Below, piece by piece: positions 31,476-41,130 of a stretch of 41,218 bases of DNA. How positions within the stretch are numbered: position 1 is the stretch's first letter; the number at the start of each line of letters is the position of its first letter. The translations under genes were made by a program, and so were the position numbers. The notes under the pieces are model-generated. The model did no database searches and was not told where the DNA came from. It worked only from the letters and a program-made list of their open reading frames with translations. The DNA lies in assembly GCA_017451025.1 (NCBI GenBank), contig JAFSSM010000025.1:1-41218 (forward strand), given 5' to 3'. This stretch comes from Synergistaceae bacterium. Lineage in GTDB: Bacteria; Synergistota; Synergistia; Synergistales; Aminobacteriaceae.

Positions 31476-32546
31476 CAGGATTTTTGTGTAGACGCTGAGA
31501 GTCTTTGCCGCCGCAATTTCAGGAGTGAAGTTTTCCTGAACTGTCCGCAGTGAATCATCTGCGCATTCTTTCCGCCCGTCTTCCCCAAGTTCCAGCATAG
31601 CCGTCATTGCAGATGCCAGGCTTTGGGGATTGTCTTTCTCAAAAACAAGACCTCTGCACTTTTCAGGGCCGATTATTTCCGTGAACGGCTCAATGTTGGA
31701 CACGATTGCAGGCAGTCCTGCCGCAAGTCCTTCCAGAAGAGCAATGCTGAAGCCTTCTTCACGTGAGGGCATGACCAGAACGTCGGAAGCCCACAGCCAG
31801 TTTCGCACATCGTCAACGAATTTTTCCGGCATGATGACTTCCACGCCCAAAGAATCCGCCAGCGCAGAATAGTTATTCTTCATTCCAGGTTCACCTTCAC
31901 CGCCGACAAGTGCAAGCCTCGCGTTTCCCCAAAGTTTCCTTATTTCTGCGAAAGCCCTAATCAGCACGTCGAAGCCCTTGCGTTTAACGTATATCCCCAC
32001 TCCCGAAAACAGAACATCGTCATCACTCAGACCGAGAGACCTACGGAATGATTTGCGTACAGCGTCATCACGCGTGAATTTTGCGGCGTTGACGGGGTTG
32101 TGTATAACGGTGATTTTTGCGGGGTCGATTTTCTGTACGCTCACCATGTAATTCCTGAGCCACTCTGCGCAGGATATACAGTGCGAAGCGTTAAGGTAGT
32201 ACTTGGCCTTAGCGGGCTTGTCGAAAGTCGAGACTACCGGCACTCCCAGCGATTTGCTCCAGTAACCGGCAATAAGGGCTGCGGACGATAATCTTGTGTG
32301 GATTATGTCGGGCGCAAAAGCTCTGACTTTGCGGGCGAATCCCCAGTCCAAAAACGGAAGTCCTGAAACCGCAGGGCTGTACGTTACTGTGAGTATGCCG
32401 TTGTCCCGCGCAAAACTCTCCATCATTCCGCCAGGCCGGCACATAAGAGCCTGCTCAATGCCTGACACTTTTAGCGAGAGTATGTGCTCAACGTAGGGCT
32501 TGAGCCACGAAATATTTTCCGCGTCAACGTAATGCAGTACTCTCAT
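31464..32546 (-). CDS. GT4-family glycosyltransferase (first of a pair)
   Basis: A 360-residue GT-B glycosyltransferase. It begins MRVLHYVDAENISWLKPYVE; the donor-binding region has VMPSREEGFSIALLEGLAAGLP with the E-x7-E motif of family 4, and LVFEKDNPQSLASAM at the end. FSGVGIYVKRKGFDVLIRA marks the domain junction. The gene overlaps the next upstream GT4 gene by 23 bases and ends overlapping the ELM1 gene on the opposite strand. It likely adds a sugar in surface-glycan synthesis, but sugar and linkage cannot be read. Confidence 0.88.
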   Translation of the reverse strand: MRVLHYVDAENISWLKPYVEHILSLKVSGIEQALMCRPGGMMESFARDNGILTVTYSPAVSGLPFLDWGFARKVRAFAPDIIHTRLSSAALIAGYWSKSLGVPVVSTFDKPAKAKYYLNASHCISCAEWLRNYMVSVQKIDPAKITVIHNPVNAAKFTRDDAVRKSFRRSLGLSDDDVLFSGVGIYVKRKGFDVLIRAFAEIRKLWGNARLALVGGEGEPGMKNNYSALADSLGVEVIMPEKFVDDVRNWLWASDVLVMPSREEGFSIALLEGLAAGLPAIVSNIEPFTEIIGPEKCRGLVFEKDNPQSLASAMTAMLELGEDGRKECADDSLRTVQENFTPEIAAAKTLSVYTKILSEL

Positions 32547-33543
32547 TCAGCACCTCACGGTAGAACTCTTCAATCTTTTGCGCAGTCTCCTCAAAAGTTG
32601 TGAGCCTGTCCGCACGAAGAGGACTTGCCGCCTTGCCGTTGATGACGTTCCTGATTGCTTCAGTCCAAGCGTCAACATCACCTTCCGGAACGAGCGCACC
32701 GTCAGCCAGCGGACGAAGCGGCTCAATGTCCGACGCAAGAACCGGCAGACCTACAGCCAGAGCCTCGTTGACCGTGAGAGGGAGTCCTTCCTGGTGTGAA
32801 GGGAACAGCAGGCACGATGAACGGCTCATGAACTCTTCAGCGTCATCACGGAAGCCCCAGAACTTCACGCGTTCGGACAGGCCAAGCTCAACACACATCT
32901 TCTCGAACTCCTCCCTGTGCGAGCCGTCCCCCACAACGTCAAGGCTCCAGTCATACCCGGTTAAGCGGCCAAGTGCCTGCAGAGCGACATCGAGTCCCTT
33001 GCGTTTCGAGAGGTAGCCAACGTACAGGAATTTTCTGCGATCGGGAAAATACTTCCCATCCCACGAGAAGCGGGGTTTTCGTACACCGTTGGGGATCGTA
33101 ACAGTTCGGGGCGGCAGGTAAGGCGTAAGGCTGTCCCTGACGGATTCGGAGACGCATATTACTCCGGCGGCGTGCCTCATAGGAAGTATTCCGATGTTCA
33201 GCGAGTAGGGGGCATGAGCCGTCATGATGAAGGGAATACCTGTCCGCGACGAAGTTATCCAGCCAATCCACGCCGGGACTCTGGAGTGAACGTGAATTAT
33301 GTCCCAGCAGTTCATTACTGAAAGTTTGCGGGCAGAGTAGAAGCCGGTGAAGAGGTTCTTGCGCTGAACGGGCAGATGAAGCACGCTTACGCTCGCGGGG
33401 AGCAATTTTTCGAGCTTGCCTCCTGCTGTTGCGAGGGTGATTGTGTGTCCGCGTTTTGCCTGTTCGTGGCACAGCTGAACTACATAGCGTTCTACTCCGC
33501 CTTCCTCGAACTCTGGGACTATGTGAAGAATTTTCGTAAACAT
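32524..33543 (-). CDS. GT4-family glycosyltransferase (second of a pair)
   Basis: A 339-residue GT-B enzyme. LHIVPEFEEGGVERYVVQLC is the classical N-terminus with the acceptor GG-x-E-R motif; FLYVGYLSKRKGLDVALQALG and LFPSHQEGLPLTVNEALAVGLPV (E-x7-E) are donor-site features. The frame extends 20 codons further, but ATG 33541-33543 (or 33547-33549, six bases earlier) gives the family N-terminus; the ribosome site AGAAAGA is weak. It overlaps the next GT4 by 23 bases. The start is divergent from the GT2 genes. Confidence 0.88.
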   Translation of the reverse strand: MFTKILHIVPEFEEGGVERYVVQLCHEQAKRGHTITLATAGGKLEKLLPASVSVLHLPVQRKNLFTGFYSARKLSVMNCWDIIHVHSRVPAWIGWITSSRTGIPFIMTAHAPYSLNIGILPMRHAAGVICVSESVRDSLTPYLPPRTVTIPNGVRKPRFSWDGKYFPDRRKFLYVGYLSKRKGLDVALQALGRLTGYDWSLDVVGDGSHREEFEKMCVELGLSERVKFWGFRDDAEEFMSRSSCLLFPSHQEGLPLTVNEALAVGLPVLASDIEPLRPLADGALVPEGDVDAWTEAIRNVINGKAASPLRADRLTTFEETAQKIEEFYREVLNESTALR

Positions 33544-33591
33544 TGTCATTCTTTCTGTGTTTGATTTGGCTCTAAGGGTACACCCAAATGC

Positions 33592-33597
33592 TATAAT
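33592..33597 (+). promoter_or_regulatory. Candidate -10 element for the GT2 operon
   Basis: TATAAT 27 bases before the ATG of the first GT2 gene, in the 80-base gap between divergent glycosyltransferase operons. The best -35-like TTGGCT is 20 bases upstream, so the match is incomplete. The gap also contains GGGTACACCC (about 33576-33585), a partial inverted repeat. Confidence 0.45.
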
Positions 33598-33623
33598 CTG
33601 CAAAATTCCAGCGAGGTGCTTTT

Positions 33624-34628
33624 ATGTCAGAACAACTTGTGAGCGTAATTATCCCGGTACACAATGCGGAGGCACATGTTGCGCGGACTCTTGAGTCGGT
33701 TCTTCAGCAGGATTACGCGCGGCTGGAGATTATCGTTGTGAACGACGCATCTACGGACTCGACCAGAAATATTGTGCAGGCTCTTCTTCAGGAGGGCGGA
33801 AGGACATTCAGGATAATTGACCTCGCGGAAAATCTCGGAGTGTCTGCTGCGCGCAACACCGGTCTTGCTTCGGCTTCAGGTAAATACGTATGGTTCTGTG
33901 ACGGTGATGATATAGCAGAAAGTAACCTGATCTCTGAGCTTTGCGGCATAGCGGAAAAATTTGACAGCGATATTGCGTTTGGCGGAATAGCCGACAGATT
34001 CGAGGACGGAAGGCCTGACGAACTGCACAGGGTAACCCTGAAGGACTCACAGCCTCTTGACGGGGAATACGCACTGTACATGAGAATGCAGAGACCGATA
34101 GCTCCGCACCTGTGCTGTATGCTGTTCAGGAAGAGTCTTCTCGATGAAAATGATATTCGCTTCACGGAAGGGTGCACGGCTTTCGAGGATATAGAGTTCC
34201 AGATGAAGGCATTTTGCCATGCGGATAAAGTCTCTTTCTCGCCGGAATGCATGTATGTGTACGTTCACAGCTCGGAGATGGGGTCTGTCCGCGACAACAA
34301 CACGCCGGAAAAACGCCTCAGCCGCTACGTAGACAGTTCGGAAGCGCACCGCAGGACAGCGGAATATTTGCTCAGGAATGCCCCATCCAAACGCACAAGA
34401 TACCTCGCCGAAAATATGCTCATGCCCGAAGCAATGATACGGAGCTTCACAGTTTGTGCGAGGGCTGGCGACAAGAAAGGCTTTGACGCTCTCCTGAACG
34501 ATGCAAACGTGAGGAGAAGCCTGCTGTCATCACGTAAAGTTTTCCTGAAAAAGCCGGAGATTTTCGCGAAGGCACTTGCGATTCTGTGCGCACCCGGCCT
34601 GTATTTCCGAATGAGGAGGGAAAAATAG
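33624..34628 (+). CDS. GT2-family glycosyltransferase, paralogue 1
   Basis: A 334-residue GT-A enzyme. LVSVIIPVHNAEAHVARTL is the N-terminal nucleotide-sugar strand, IIVVNDASTDST follows, AARNTGLASASGKYVWFCDGDD ends in the metal-binding D-x-D region, and EGCTAFEDIEF holds the catalytic-base ED. The C-terminus carries a helical region and KKPEIFAKALAILCAPGLYF. GAGGTG precedes ATG 33624. A one-base stop/start overlap joins it to the second GT2, which has the same domain layout. Substrate unknown; O-chain or capsule assembly is inferred. Confidence 0.9.
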   Translation: MSEQLVSVIIPVHNAEAHVARTLESVLQQDYARLEIIVVNDASTDSTRNIVQALLQEGGRTFRIIDLAENLGVSAARNTGLASASGKYVWFCDGDDIAESNLISELCGIAEKFDSDIAFGGIADRFEDGRPDELHRVTLKDSQPLDGEYALYMRMQRPIAPHLCCMLFRKSLLDENDIRFTEGCTAFEDIEFQMKAFCHADKVSFSPECMYVYVHSSEMGSVRDNNTPEKRLSRYVDSSEAHRRTAEYLLRNAPSKRTRYLAENMLMPEAMIRSFTVCARAGDKKGFDALLNDANVRRSLLSSRKVFLKKPEIFAKALAILCAPGLYFRMRREK

Positions 34629-35614
34629 TGAGTGAGCCTCTCGTGAGCATAATTATTCCCACGTACAACGGGGAAAAGCGTATAGCCCGGACACTAGGGT
34701 CAATAATTGCGCAGGACTATGCGAATCTGGAGATTATAGTTGTTGATGACGTTTCAACTGACGGCACGGTGAAGGCGGCCCGAAAAGTTCTTGAGAATAG
34801 CGGACGGAAATTCACGATGCTTCAGCGCAAGGAGAACGGCGGGCAATGTGCGGCACGCAACACCGGACTTGAAGCAGCTACGGGAGAATACGTGATATTC
34901 TTTGACCACGACGACTTGGCCGCAGAAAATTTCGTGAGTGTATTGTGCGGAAAAGCTCAGGCCAAGAAATCCGATATAGTCTTCTGCGGAATGAAGCACT
35001 TCTACGAAGATGAAGGCCGGTATGTCTCCGAGACGTTCACCCTTCCAGACAATGCTTCTTTGCTTGAGGCATGGACGGAACGCAGAATATTTTTCTGGAG
35101 TGTCTGGAACTTCATGTTCAGGCGGGATTTCCTAGTGAACAACTCCCTGAAATTCACCGAAGGCTGTATGCTCGGCGAGGACACAGAATTTGTGATGAAA
35201 GCCTTAGTGCTGACACACCGGGTATCTTTCGTGAGGGATGAGCTGTATATTTACGTGCATCATGGCGGACAGACATCGAAGGCACATCGTGAGGCCGCCA
35301 TGTTCCACGCAATAATTATGTCGAGGTTTAGGCTCGGAAGGTTCATCGCCAGAAACACCGACAGCCCTAAAATCAGGGAATATGTCCTGAACTTCTACAT
35401 GCCTGATACCATAGTGAAGCAGTTCACGGAATGCGCAAAACTTGGAGACAAAGAACGATATGCGCGTTTAACCCAAACACTAAGGCACAGGAAAATCCGG
35501 GAGCTTCTGCTGTCGTCGGTGAAGTTCGTCCTTAAAATGCCGGAACTGTTCCTGAAGTCGATTATCCTGCTCTATGCACCTGGACTGTATTATCTGTTAA
35601 GGAAGGGGAGGTAG
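34628..35614 (+). CDS. GT2-family glycosyltransferase, paralogue 2
   Basis: A 328-residue GT-A enzyme closely parallel to the gene before it: LVSIIIPTYNGEKRIARTL, IVVDDVSTDGT, AARNTGLEAATGEYVIFFDHDD (D-x-D), and EGCMLGEDTEF. The tail KMPELFLKSIILLYAPGLYYLL mirrors the other copy's end. I start at GTG 34628 rather than the ATG at 34586, since GAGGAGGG lies 8 bases before and it gives the normal N-terminus; the stop of the first gene is TAGTG. Tandem duplication followed by specialisation is likely. Confidence 0.9.
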   Translation: MSEPLVSIIIPTYNGEKRIARTLGSIIAQDYANLEIIVVDDVSTDGTVKAARKVLENSGRKFTMLQRKENGGQCAARNTGLEAATGEYVIFFDHDDLAAENFVSVLCGKAQAKKSDIVFCGMKHFYEDEGRYVSETFTLPDNASLLEAWTERRIFFWSVWNFMFRRDFLVNNSLKFTEGCMLGEDTEFVMKALVLTHRVSFVRDELYIYVHHGGQTSKAHREAAMFHAIIMSRFRLGRFIARNTDSPKIREYVLNFYMPDTIVKQFTECAKLGDKERYARLTQTLRHRKIRELLLSSVKFVLKMPELFLKSIILLYAPGLYYLLRKGR

Positions 35615-35617
35615 AGT

Positions 35618-36529
35618 GTGCGGAGGATAAGGCTTTTGCGGGAATTCGGGCTGAAATTGGCGGCGGCGGATTTCCTTGCGTCGAACGTCAGGATTCCGGG
35701 ACTGACTGCCCGCCTGAAGGATAGAGTGATGCTCTCGTACTTGAAGGAAAATTATGGTTACGTGATTGCGCGGCACAAGAACGCGAAGAAGCCCGAAGTT
35801 TTGGGTGAGGTGCCTGCGCCGGTGTGGAGCATGTGGTGGCAGGGGGAAGGGAATTTGCCGGAAGTAATAAGCCTGTGCTTCAGGAATATTCGCAGATATT
35901 GCGGAGAGCACCCGTTCAGAATAATTACCCGCACGAATTTCGAGGAGTATGTGAGTCTTCCCGGCTATATTATTGACAAATTCAGGGCAGGGATAATCTC
36001 TCTGACGCACTTATCTGACATAATCAGGGCATATCTGCTCACGAATTACGGGGGGATGTGGCTTGACGCTACGGTGCTGACGACGCGGAATATCCCCGAA
36101 GAAATTTTCGCACACGAATACTTCACGGTACGCAGGGCTTATGATTCAGGAGAGTATAACGTTTCGGCCAAGAGGTGGACAATTTGCGTTCAGGGAGCGA
36201 AAAGGGGATGCAGGCTGAGTGATTTTGTGCTGGATATGTGGCTGGAATACTGGCGTGATAAGAATTTTCTGGCGGACTATGTTATGACTGACTACTTCAC
36301 TGCTCTGGCATATGAAATGCTTCCTGAGTGCAGGGCTATGCTGGAAGCTGTGGCGTTAAGCAATCCTGCGTTCGATGACTTGCAGCCCGTGCTTGATGAT
36401 GAGTTTGACCCGGAAATGTGGGATAGATTGACGAACGGGACTCAGTTCTTCAAGCTGACATACAAGCACGAATACATGAAAAAAGTGTGCGGCCGCAATA
36501 CGTTTTACGGCCACGTTCTCAGGCTCTAG
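35618..36529 (+). CDS. Caps_synth/GT32-like glycosyltransferase
   Basis: A 303-residue protein. The block VWSMWWQGEGNLPEVISLC, then HLSDIIRAYLLTNYGGMWLDATVL, with Asp150 of the D-x-x/DAT motif for metal and donor, matches capsular-polysaccharide synthesis proteins of the GT32-related DXD group. The N-terminus is basic. Start is GTG 35618 after GGAGG, four bases past the previous gene. The TAG stop (36527-36529) shares CTAG with the opposing gene's stop. Acts presumably at the cytosolic side of the membrane in surface-glycan assembly. Confidence 0.85.
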   Translation: MRRIRLLREFGLKLAAADFLASNVRIPGLTARLKDRVMLSYLKENYGYVIARHKNAKKPEVLGEVPAPVWSMWWQGEGNLPEVISLCFRNIRRYCGEHPFRIITRTNFEEYVSLPGYIIDKFRAGIISLTHLSDIIRAYLLTNYGGMWLDATVLTTRNIPEEIFAHEYFTVRRAYDSGEYNVSAKRWTICVQGAKRGCRLSDFVLDMWLEYWRDKNFLADYVMTDYFTALAYEMLPECRAMLEAVALSNPAFDDLQPVLDDEFDPEMWDRLTNGTQFFKLTYKHEYMKKVCGRNTFYGHVLRL

Positions 36530-38391
36530 CTGTTCTTGAACAGTAACGCCATCAGCTTCATCACTTCGGCTCCCTTATCCTTAGGGGACTTCTTCATGTC
36601 CTGCGGAGAAATTTCCTCTGACTCCCTCAGTCCAAGATATTCACATAGTATCGAGTTCACCTCAGGATTTCCACCAAAGCCAGGCATAAAGCTAACAGCA
36701 TCAAGCACCAAATTCCTCACAGCTTTTCTCTCCGGCTCAGACAGCCACGAACACATGAACTCCCCATAAAAATCCGGCCCGTACTGCGTCGGCAAATCAA
36801 GGGGCTTCTGCGCTTCAAGCCTGATGTTGTCCTCCTCACTCAGCGGGAAAAAGTCATTCATCCTCTGTCTTAGCGGTTCAAACACCCTGTCCTCGTCCGC
36901 CGCAATCGACGCACAGATAAACTCCAGCATGAACGACGCAACACGATAGCTGTGCGGAAGCAGAGTACCGGGCGCAAGCTCAAGGAATAATATCCTGTCC
37001 GCCCAGTTATATTCGCGGCCAGACACACCCAGGTCCGGGATAATCTGCCACCCTTCAACCTGCGCGGTGTCAACGACAGATTTGCGCTCCTTGCCGGTCA
37101 ATTTAGTGCCGGGCGAAGTGTCAAACCGCATCAGCTTTCCGACATCGCCGAGCGTCGCAATCAGCGGAAGGTCGCTTCCCTCAGGGCGCAAAGTCTCTAT
37201 GAATCCCTCGAAGTCCGGACGTTCCGAAATATCGGCCAGGTCAGGAACAGGCTCATCCTTTTTCTTGGCCGTCAGGAAAACTTCCCACGAATCTACAAGC
37301 GTCTTGAACACCGACAAGTCAGCAAAGAAATCAGGCACTTCCACCGGCTCGCTGTCCTTTTTGCTGAGTTTTATTGACGGGTTAGAGGGAGTGTAGGGAA
37401 TCTTCAGTGTCTCAGCGGGTTTTATGAGCACAAGTCCTCCCTTGCACAAATCCTTGTAGATCGGCGTAAACGTCTTCAGGTCTTCGTCGGAGTGAGGGAT
37501 TCGCGGGTCATCTGGCCTGTGGAGTTTTTCCGAAGTGCGCACCAGCGTGAAAGCAACTGCTGACGGAAGAGGCAGCATCGAGTTCGCGTAAGAGTTCAGC
37601 ATAATATCAAGCAGGCCTTCAGGAACAACGCTTAACCTCTTGCAGAAGCCTAACAGGTCCTCATCAGGAAGCCATACCTTAATTGCCAGCCAAGTGATGA
37701 ACGTGATTAATTTTTCCTTGAGTACATCCCAGCGCAGAAGGGGCAATAGCCGGAAAGATTCGCTTATGCACATAGGCAGGTCTAGCTTGTCCACGATTGT
37801 ACGTCTCTCGATTCCGTAGAGCCAGATTGCGGGATAGCACATGTGAAGCGGGGGCTGTATTCTTGCTCCTGCAAGCCACGTTAGATATATTCCGCGCTGA
37901 AGAGGGGTCATTGAGGCATAGGACTCTGCTCCTTCCGCCGGAAGAGGCTCTTCCTGTTTCGGGAAACTCACCGGAAGAGTTACGTCAATGCACGACGGTT
38001 CATGAGTCGCTGCCTCGCCGTTGGACCAGTACGTTACGGGATTGGAGACGGTGATGTTCTCGAGCTGGATATTCCCTGAGCGTCCGCACCACCTGAGGAG
38101 ATTTGCGGCGGCCTGTGCCTGCTTTTTGGGTTCGGACGAGCGGCCATAAGGCGACTCTTCTCCGGCTGGAGCATGGGCGGAATACGTTGCTCCAGAGGCA
38201 AGTTCTGGTGAGGTTACTGGTTTCGCGGCAGGTATGAATATTTCATTGCCGTCATACTCGGAGACTTCGGCTTCAGGGATCTCCACAGTTTCAGGCGATT
38301 CTTCTTTGGGCGGCTCAGAAATTCGGGACTGCTGTCTCAGGAATGCTCCGACGGCAACAGCAACAATTACGCCGATAACTAGAAATATCAT
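36526..38391 (-). CDS. Membrane-anchored TerB_N/TerB-like domain protein
   Basis: A 621-residue protein. One N-terminal helix (2-18) anchors it; 20-95 is a low-complexity Pro/Glu linker. Residues ~98-205 match TerB_N: SCIDVTLPV, MTPLQRGIYLTWLAGAR (161-177) and IWLYGIERRTIVD (189-201). At 447-470 GWQIIPDLGVSGREY resembles the G-x-E-P-D-x-x-x-G-G segment seen in TerB_N proteins. Residues ~482-530 (ICASIAADEDRVF...LRQRMNDFFPLSEED) look like a TerB-type helical domain with acidic metal-binding residues. TerB-family proteins belong to tellurite-resistance/stress complexes; the partner genes are not here. It follows the DUF2156 gene by 17 bases. Confidence 0.72.
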   Translation of the reverse strand: MIFLVIGVIVAVAVGAFLRQQSRISEPPKEESPETVEIPEAEVSEYDGNEIFIPAAKPVTSPELASGATYSAHAPAGEESPYGRSSEPKKQAQAAANLLRWCGRSGNIQLENITVSNPVTYWSNGEAATHEPSCIDVTLPVSFPKQEEPLPAEGAESYASMTPLQRGIYLTWLAGARIQPPLHMCYPAIWLYGIERRTIVDKLDLPMCISESFRLLPLLRWDVLKEKLITFITWLAIKVWLPDEDLLGFCKRLSVVPEGLLDIMLNSYANSMLPLPSAVAFTLVRTSEKLHRPDDPRIPHSDEDLKTFTPIYKDLCKGGLVLIKPAETLKIPYTPSNPSIKLSKKDSEPVEVPDFFADLSVFKTLVDSWEVFLTAKKKDEPVPDLADISERPDFEGFIETLRPEGSDLPLIATLGDVGKLMRFDTSPGTKLTGKERKSVVDTAQVEGWQIIPDLGVSGREYNWADRILFLELAPGTLLPHSYRVASFMLEFICASIAADEDRVFEPLRQRMNDFFPLSEEDNIRLEAQKPLDLPTQYGPDFYGEFMCSWLSEPERKAVRNLVLDAVSFMPGFGGNPEVNSILCEYLGLRESEEISPQDMKKSPKDKGAEVMKLMALLFKNS

Positions 38392-38408
38392 CGCAAAAAC
38401 TCTCCTGG

Positions 38409-39290
38409 CTATAAAATTTCCATCTGGTATTTCTCCAGCATAATTGTCGGATTATAGGACAGCTTTGCTTCACGCAGGCCGGGTTCTCCCATATCTTCCT
38501 CTCTGTTTGCGAACTTGTAGCCTGAGCCGTGATTTTTCAGGAACATGTAATTTATGGCCTGATAGCTTCCTGCATATTCGCCGAATGCTTTTTCGAAGCG
38601 AATATCCAGATTTTCGGGGTCAAGTTCTTCTGCGATTGTGTAGGCAATTATTCTGCCGTCTACGCGCAGCAATCCTCCGGCAAAACGGAAATCATTCCAC
38701 TTGTCCAGAGCGTTGCGTATGGCCTTGTCCTCGTCGTCCAGAGAGACAGCTTCTTCTGGAGTCATTGTGTCTTCTCTGTGGATGCGCCAGCTGTCCTGAA
38801 ATTCCAGTATCTCGCCGAAAATTTCGGGCCTCAGTTCCTCGTAGTCCCATTCGTAGCCGTCAAGGAATGCGCGTACACGGTTGCGTTTGTGTGCGTAGGC
38901 TTTTCCCTTGAGGGAAATTAAGTCCTTCACCGAGTAGACATATTCGGCCTGGTCCCTGTCAATGGTGAAGCGGAGATTTTCGCGGCCTGCAAGTATGTCC
39001 CGGACTTTTGCGGGAACGTCATGGATGATGTCGCCGGACTTGAAATGCGCAAGTGCTTTGTCCCAGTCGGTTACAGCGTCCCAGTTGCCAGCGGGGCCGA
39101 AGATTCCGGGAAGGGGGCCGCCTGATATGAGCCAGCATAAATTTTCGTCGTAGGCAATTTCGAGGGGGTAAGCGTGAAGCCAGGCCCACAGCCCGAAGAA
39201 GGAATATTCGGCATAATGCACGGGCGAGGCCTGAAAGAACGATGTATAAGTATCTTTGTCCTGCCAGGAGAAGGGGCGGAAGTTGAGCAT
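38409..39290 (-). CDS. DUF2156 family protein (phosphatidylglycerol lysyltransferase C-domain-like, acyltransferase fold)
   Basis: A 293-residue cytosolic protein. FRPFSWQDKDTYTSFF, YAEYSFFGLWAWLHAYPLEI and DLISLKGKAYAHKRNRVRAFLD are typical of DUF2156/LPG_synthase_C proteins (tandem GNAT-like fold); the last ~60 residues have FEKAFGEYAGSYQAINYMFL, the conserved Y-x-x-x-N stretch. Substrate is unknown for many members. The frame allows TTG 39302, but ATG 39288-39290 gives the family start; GAAAGGA is rather far (12-13 bases). It is 17 bases upstream of the TerB_N gene, likely one transcript. Confidence 0.82.
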   Translation of the reverse strand: MLNFRPFSWQDKDTYTSFFQASPVHYAEYSFFGLWAWLHAYPLEIAYDENLCWLISGGPLPGIFGPAGNWDAVTDWDKALAHFKSGDIIHDVPAKVRDILAGRENLRFTIDRDQAEYVYSVKDLISLKGKAYAHKRNRVRAFLDGYEWDYEELRPEIFGEILEFQDSWRIHREDTMTPEEAVSLDDEDKAIRNALDKWNDFRFAGGLLRVDGRIIAYTIAEELDPENLDIRFEKAFGEYAGSYQAINYMFLKNHGSGYKFANREEDMGEPGLREAKLSYNPTIMLEKYQMEIL

Positions 39291-39324: not shown

Positions 39325-39360
39325 CAAAAAAGCGGCTGGTCTGAAACAGTCAGAAGCCGC
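39325..39360 (-). terminator. Rho-independent terminator after hup
   Basis: On the minus strand GCGGCT-TCTGA, a 5-base loop and TCAGA-CC-AGCCGC form an 11-bp stem with a 2-base bulge, followed by six T. It lies 28 bases after the HU stop and before the DUF2156 start; it should largely end the HU transcript, leaving DUF2156/TerB_N to read-through or an unseen promoter. Confidence 0.88.
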
Positions 39361-39387
39361 CTTTACGTCAGAAAAAAGTCTGCGCGG

Positions 39388-39678
39388 TTAGTGAAGCTCT
39401 ACGTTAACTACTGCGTCTTTGAGGTCTTTGCCTGGCCTGAAGACAGGGACTTTCTTAGCCGGTATGACGACGACCTTAGTGGGATCCTGGGGGTTGCGTC
39501 CTTCTCTGGCGGCTCTTTCCCTGACTTCGAACACGCCGAAGCCGACGAACGTGCATTTGTCGCCTTTGCTGAGAGCGCCCTGAATTTCTGCGAAGACTTC
39601 ATCTACGACGGGGGCGACATCTTTTTTGCGCATGGCGAGTTTGGCAGTGATAGCGTCAATAAGTTCTGCTTTAGTCAT
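39388..39678 (-). CDS. hup: DNA-binding protein HU
   Basis: A 96-residue histone-like protein that bends and compacts DNA. MTKAELIDAITAKLAM, the VGFGVFEVRERAAREGRNPQ arm (the flexible beta arm with the intercalating N-P) and PAKKVPVFRPGKDLKDAV are all standard. AGGAGG precedes ATG 39676-39678. It has its own promoter and a strong terminator, so it is an independent, probably highly expressed unit. Confidence 0.97.
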   Translation of the reverse strand: MTKAELIDAITAKLAMRKKDVAPVVDEVFAEIQGALSKGDKCTFVGFGVFEVRERAAREGRNPQDPTKVVVIPAKKVPVFRPGKDLKDAVVNVELH

Positions 39679-39762: not shown

Positions 39763-41130
39763 TTAGCAGAGGCCATTGCAAATTTTTGTCCGTCTAGTTT
39801 GAATTGTGAAGGAGGCAACATTATTCTTAATAGTTTGAGCTTTCTCGTTCATGATGATAATAGATATTATCCATATCACCAGGCTATACCACATAAAATC
39901 ATATAAATGCTGTTCAAACATGAAGTAATACATAACTTGCACAAATGATGCTCCAATAGCTCTCTGCAATTTTGTCATTTCTCTCACGTTACGGAAAAAC
40001 ATCATTATTGACAAGGTAAGCGGAATAAAGAATAGGCAAAAACCAACTATTCCTGAACTTATGATGACATTGGCATACATACTGTCCAGATATTTCCCAA
40101 ATCCTAATTTGCTACCCCATTTCAGAAAGCCTTCACCTAAATAATCAATATAGCCATACCCTGTAATTAACTCATCCGCAGACATTTTCATAATAGGCAT
40201 GAAGTTTTGAAGTCTGCCGCTTTGTATTATAAGAAAGTACCAATCTATAGCTATCATAGCAAAAAATGCAACTAGTATTATGCTGACAACTAATAGTGCA
40301 TTTGCTGTAACAGCATTTTTTTTGTACATGCCAAGCAGAAAATACACCATCAAAAACATAGCTAAACTAGTTATAGCTGAGCGTGAGCCTGTGGACATCA
40401 TCATTAGGAATGTTATTATGCATAAAATATAAATATATTGAGACATTAAGATATTTTTATATTGATTGCGGGTTCTAGTCTCTAATGCCATGTTATAAAG
40501 TAAGCTGATAATGATAAAGTAACAACAGGCGATTCCGGCATCATTAGGATGAGTAAAACCATAAGCATTTCTGTATCGTCCATTCGCCAACAAAAGTGAA
40601 CCTATACGTGATATAAAATTTAACCCGTCAAAAAACCTCAAATAGTTTAAAGCAAGGATAGAACCGGTAGCTATAAGAGCAACTCCTAAAAAATATATTT
40701 TTAAGTCATAGGCAATAGTTATTCTTGCTCCAAGAAAAAATATAGCTGTAAGTGCAACACGAGCAGTTATCTTGTATGCAGCACGAAAATCTGTAACTTC
40801 AACAAGTCCTGTAACGTAAGTAAAAATGTACCATGCCATCCAAGCACATGCTCCAAACATTAGCACATAAACAGCCTTCGATTTGAAATATTGCTTTCTA
40901 GGCATAGTATAGTTCACGATTACTACAGTCCCTAACAGGCAAACAGATGAAATATCCCGCAACAATTTTGTATTGTACCCGGCATAATGTGCCGCACTCA
41001 AAAACATGAACAGGCCGCTCGTAAATAAAAACATATACGAATTAAACCGCCTGTTCAACCTCGATATACGACTTCCCAATTTGTTGTACCTCCTGATTTT
41101 TATCGTATTGTCAATTATTTCTGCGCTCAT
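39763..41130 (-). CDS. O-antigen polymerase/ligase-like membrane protein
   Basis: Up to 455 residues, with about 11 membrane helices, matching Wzy/WaaL-type proteins. YRNAYGFTHPNDAG and MSTGSRSAITSLAMFLMVYFLL are the recognisable H-P-N and T-G-S-R-(G/S) blocks, and GYGYIDYLGEG with a later YANVIISSGIVGF fits the large periplasmic loop and following helix. It would polymerise or ligate O-chain repeat units on the periplasmic face. The DNA is visibly AT-rich compared with the rest of the window, a sign of transfer. The start is uncertain: AGGAGG (41094-41089) stands 9 bases before an in-frame TTG at 41079-41077, giving 438 residues starting GSRISRLNRRF; the ATG 41130 has a weaker site. Confidence 0.83.
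   Translation of the reverse strand: MSAEIIDNTIKIRRYNKLGSRISRLNRRFNSYMFLFTSGLFMFLSAAHYAGYNTKLLRDISSVCLLGTVVIVNYTMPRKQYFKSKAVYVLMFGACAWMAWYIFTYVTGLVEVTDFRAAYKITARVALTAIFFLGARITIAYDLKIYFLGVALIATGSILALNYLRFFDGLNFISRIGSLLLANGRYRNAYGFTHPNDAGIACCYFIIISLLYNMALETRTRNQYKNILMSQYIYILCIITFLMMMSTGSRSAITSLAMFLMVYFLLGMYKKNAVTANALLVVSIILVAFFAMIAIDWYFLIIQSGRLQNFMPIMKMSADELITGYGYIDYLGEGFLKWGSKLGFGKYLDSMYANVIISSGIVGFCLFFIPLTLSIMMFFRNVREMTKLQRAIGASFVQVMYYFMFEQHLYDFMWYSLVIWIISIIIMNEKAQTIKNNVASFTIQTRRTKICNGLC

Follow-up and report, generated by a model that had tools for sequence, protein, structure and literature searches.

Two adjacent genes, which we call A and B, raise the question of whether they form a functional pair or are merely neighbours. 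They lie in a window of 41,218 nucleotides, the whole stretch of DNA analysed here, from a Synergistaceae genome of 2.35 Mb in 62 contigs. A preliminary description of the window had proposed that they may constitute a new two-gene envelope-stress module, made up of a membrane-anchored TerB_N/TerB-like protein (A) and a DUF2156 protein (B). Gene A (positions 36526–38391, minus strand) is an intact open reading frame of 621 amino acids beginning with ATG. Gene B (38409–39290, minus strand), also intact and beginning with ATG, encodes 293 amino acids and lies upstream of A on the same strand, with an intergenic gap of 17 bp. When the open reading frames were called again, both genes were recovered at exactly the positions given earlier. 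A literature search for TerB_N, DUF2156 and TerB in Synergistota returned nothing on point.

The surroundings of the two genes were inspected in the window. Directly upstream of B is a gene for an HU-family DNA-binding protein of 96 amino acids (39388–39678, minus strand), which had been absent from the preliminary description. The HU protein shows 78–97% identity among relatives, and its gene is found upstream of B at most loci of the genus. RNA folding revealed a terminator-like hairpin with a U run between HU and B (39325–39363, minus strand), the intergenic stretch as a whole having a fold z of −2.9; this hairpin suggests that HU is a separate transcription unit. A promoter scan around the A/B locus performed no better than on shuffled sequences. 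Glycosyltransferase, capsule-synthesis-like and Wzy-like genes flank the HU-B-A group (32527–36526 and 39766–41130 in the window), and these polysaccharide-gene flanks differ from species to species.

Hydropathy and flanking charges indicated that A starts with a transmembrane helix (residues 2–18; 38338–38388, minus strand), with no Lys/Arg ahead of it and Arg/Lys behind it. The hydrophobic N-terminal helix was kept in all 28 homologs compared. Lys or Arg followed the helix in 28 of 28 and was missing before it in 23; a start codon placed too far upstream may account for the remaining five. According to the positive-inside rule, these charges predict an N-out/C-in orientation with the domains in the cytoplasm. 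The alignment then showed an acidic, Pro/Glu-rich and variable linker under weaker constraint (residues 19–94; 38110–38337, minus strand), so that both the helix and the linker noticed earlier were borne out.

The linker leads into a complete TerB_N domain with an SngA-type extension (residues 95–378; 37258–38109, minus strand). TerB_N (PF13208) was the sole Pfam match in A, covering residues 129–202 with 36.7 bits against a curated cut-off of 25, and was detected in all 28 homologs (E ≤ 0.01). The closest relative of A with a known function, which the preliminary description had missed, was SngA of the Shango system. The PADLOC model of SngA gave a partial match of 34 bits over residues 68–342. 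For profile comparison, one alignment was built of 28 A homologs from many genera and another of nine SngA-type proteins, three of which (L130, L131, and L133) are annotated beside an ATPase and a helicase. Residues 95–378 of A aligned with the SngA-like proteins in hhalign with a probability of 99.8 and an E-value of 2.9e-29, which recovered the full TerB_N domain, and the collinear alignment extended over residues 95–590 with a probability of 99.9 and an E-value of 8.8e-32, calculated for a single comparison. The extension is followed by an SngA-type segment of helices and strands before TerB, defined by hhalign and AF2 (residues 389–478; 36958–37227, minus strand). NCBIfam and PHROGs provided nothing useful for A or B. 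Sequence searches of solved structures yielded no match with the A profile and only apolipoprotein-type helical noise with the SngA profile.

The C-terminal part of A was less readily assigned. A TerB-like acidic helical region had been placed at residues 482–530; the region is real, but it is longer, spanning residues ~479–602 (36586–36957, minus strand), and it escaped the sequence HMMs while being detected by profile-profile and fold comparison. PF05099 (TerB) matched neither A (E ≤ 1) nor the 28 homologs nor any protein of the same genome. The C-terminal part alone aligned in hhalign with the pre-TerB and TerB regions of SngA with a score of 64 and an E-value of 2.2e-8 (single comparison), whereas the maximum among 200 column-shuffled profiles was 22.7 and the reversed profile reached 16.3. 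The full-length AF2 model was unusable, with a poor TerB_N half (pLDDT < 50); residues 383–621 modelled alone gave a pLDDT of 86.6 and a pTM of 0.84. In VIA-align against 997 PDB chains, the first rank was taken by 2ou3, a COG3793 tellurite-resistance protein (Z 6.9 over 115 residues), and the second by 2h5n (PG1108; Z 5.3), which we take to be TerB-like from fold classifications; the next entry had a Z of 4.4. Foldseek alone found no significant match, the best E-value being 0.5. The Z-scores are modest, but they agree with the independent profile alignment, and residues ~479–602 of A are therefore likely to adopt a TerB fold. This domain would be a diverged one, as the ADG-type loops of TerB were absent from all A homologs inspected, which makes classical metal sensing by A unlikely. 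A TerB_C domain was also considered and rejected, no match being obtained in A or the 28 homologs. Of the domains proposed for an HMM check, accordingly, TerB_N was confirmed by Pfam, and TerB and TerB_C were not.

Shango inhibits several phages in Pseudomonas aeruginosa PAO1 (PMC10250203). Its SngA subunit (PADLOC PDLC03958) shares with A the order of TerB_N, intermediate segment, and TerB. In addition, an N-terminal hydrophobic segment followed by Lys/Arg is present, as in A, in SngA from Synergistota and in the one encoded on an E. coli plasmid (L131). Unlike SngA, A has no TerB_C and has lost the TerB ADG loops, and the A homologs scored 33–43 bits against the SngA model while SngA controls scored 199–350 bits. 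Neither SngB (BrxC/D-like ATPase) nor SngC (helicase) was encoded beside A, which is surrounded in the window by B, HU, and glycan genes, and PF10923, the SngB-type ATPase family, was detected in one of the 43 genomes of the genus and in none of the other 42. Judging from these sequence comparisons, which looked for TerB_C and for an ATPase and a helicase next to A and found none of them, A is not a member of the Shango system; it shares its lineage with SngA and probably works partly like it. A complete Shango locus was found elsewhere in the same family (L120 4811–10446, genome G074), with PADLOC scores of 199, 579, and 786 bits for SngA, SngB, and SngC, respectively.

Regarding the distribution of A, none of the 43 genomes of the genus lacked a match to the A profile. 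Across the phylum, 17 of 63 genera had one, and these 17 belong to a single family. The match was long in 14 of these 17 genera, the genus itself included, so that A is present at full length in 13 further genera. In the remaining three (g16, g20, and g23), the match covered TerB_N only, and the proteins examined were of the SngA type with TerB_C. Some g23 proteins of ~435–447 amino acids (L124 5412–6716, L125 4747–6048, L121 4902–6242, and L128 4594–5895) carry TerB_N and TerB_C, as identified by Pfam in L124, with the intervening TerB region missing. The named relatives of A come from metagenome assemblies of rumen Synergistaceae/Synergistales and 'Fretibacterium'. In the A tree, sequences clustered by genus, the genus labels requiring no more changes than the minimum; the tree thus follows taxonomy, as expected under vertical inheritance. 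The reading frame was open in nearly all genomes and many positions were invariant. The dN/dS ratio in non-saturated comparisons was ~0.06–0.13 for the folded parts and 0.11–0.23 for the linker (residues 23–90). A is under purifying selection.

We then considered B and its relation to A. B matched PF09924 (LPG_synthase_C, DUF2156) with 117.2 bits against a curated 27.5, confirming the family named earlier, and this single domain occupied residues 32–292 of 293 with no other Pfam match. The closest solved relative was 2hqy, which aligned over the whole length (E 5e-37); B thus resembles stand-alone PF09924 proteins and differs from MprF-type lipid aminoacyl transferases in lacking their N-terminal integral-membrane part. 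B adjoined A in 31 of the 43 genomes of the genus, lying less than 200 bp upstream in 27 and ~600 bp upstream in four. It was located elsewhere in five genomes, some of which may be explained by contig ends, and seven A-carrying genomes had no close B, only a distant paralog or none. An inserted open reading frame separated B from A in at least three genomes, the gap having been read in three of the four ~600-bp cases. By eye, the inserted frame is PIN-domain toxin-like, starting with MKIVIDTNVVISG (L071 6044–6672, L072 6919–7517, and L073 1697–2297), and in L071 it is accompanied by an antitoxin-like frame. Outside the genus, only four genomes, each from a different genus, had B no more than 3 kb from A (G087, G101, G093, and G084). 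Of the 20 genera of the family, 19 had B homologs, among them genera without A. At B-less loci (L058, L060, L067, and L069), HU was directly upstream of A. Among other genera, a PF07005/PF17042 sugar-kinase-like gene was downstream of A at 12 of 20 loci; this family occurred in only 21 of the 43 genomes of the genus. A universal partner for A was sought among B, HU, and the PF07005/PF17042 gene, and none of them was universal.

These data can be set against several explanations. B might be a GNAT-type aminoacyl transferase acting on lipid or cell-wall precursors, with A tethering or regulating it at the membrane, in the manner of the envelope module first proposed. The short same-strand gap, the proximity of B to A in the majority of its genomes within the genus, the few close pairs in other genera, and the polysaccharide genes nearby are consistent with this idea, and the retention of B near A could mean a functional link. 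However, B is absent, moved, or split from A in several genomes and is common in genera without A. HU has the same local synteny as B, and hence gene order is by itself a sufficient explanation of the pairing. On these sequence data, the B-A pairing is best read as local gene order rather than a conserved two-gene module; B is probably co-transcribed with A in the genus but not its obligate partner, and we regard an envelope module as unlikely. A role in a Ter-type metal or stress response, together with TerD-family proteins encoded elsewhere, appears more doubtful still. It would draw on the seven TerD-family matches in the genome (contigs C58, C35, C62, and C25, some in tandem) and on the TerB-like domain, whose predicted fold A shares with the TerB/COG3793 tellurite-resistance proteins 2ou3 and 2h5n. 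Unlike those proteins, however, A has neither a PF05099 match nor ADG loops. The Ter system is a cluster of TerB, TerC, and TerD genes, and no such cluster exists at A: as had been noted, the window contains no Ter partners, the TerD-family genes lie on other contigs, and neither TerC nor Pfam TerB was matched in the genome. Furthermore, seven of the 43 genomes carry A without TerD, among them the 100%-complete G020.

Kinship with SngA allows two further explanations. A may still be anti-phage, either as a single-gene system derived from Shango or with partners encoded elsewhere. Its kinship with SngA, the phage inhibition by Shango, and the occurrence of a full Shango locus in the same family argue for this possibility, but within the genus A occurs throughout and is passed on vertically, whereas Shango, like typical defence genes, is patchy. 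The rarity of PF10923, the low scores of A homologs against the SngA model, and the missing TerB_C also count against it, and we hold an anti-phage role to be improbable, to about the same degree as the envelope module. Alternatively, A could be a degenerating leftover from a transferred Shango system, having lost TerB_C and the ADG loops and having no SngB-type gene nearby. The selection signal on A, together with its open reading frame and invariant positions, strongly disfavours this explanation, which we consider very improbable.

The presence of A in every examined genome of this rumen genus, with neither the other Shango subunits nor a fixed partner, points instead to a core cellular scaffold and away from a two-gene stress module. 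We therefore favour, with a probability of about 0.6, the reading that A is a core, vertically inherited, membrane-tethered, cytoplasm-facing SngA-like scaffold without SngB and SngC. The protein would be anchored by its single N-terminal helix, with its bulk predicted from the flanking charges to be cytoplasmic, and would most likely serve as a membrane-tethered scaffold or sensor that brings cytoplasmic partners together at the inner membrane. Given the absence of the ADG loops, A probably acts via protein contacts rather than metal sensing. More tentatively, and at somewhat less than even odds, a lineage of SngA-like proteins in Synergistota may serve a housekeeping function constitutively at the inner face of the cytoplasmic membrane, independent of phage defence. 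If this were true, Shango may have recruited its membrane-anchored SngA from a scaffold of this kind, or the recruitment may have gone the other way.

The role of the TerB_N/TerB protein in Shango was left unexplained in the papers we found. A universal SngA relative lacking the Shango ATPase within one family would allow an SngA-type scaffold to be examined in isolation from the other Shango components, and the N-terminal helix common to A and SngA suggests a contribution of membrane tethering to SngA function. These comparisons also advise caution in annotation, as proteins annotated with TerB_N, or weakly matching the SngA model, need not belong to a defence system. Lastly, one genome (G118) contained two distant A-like genes, L110 and L111, which formed long branches in the A tree.
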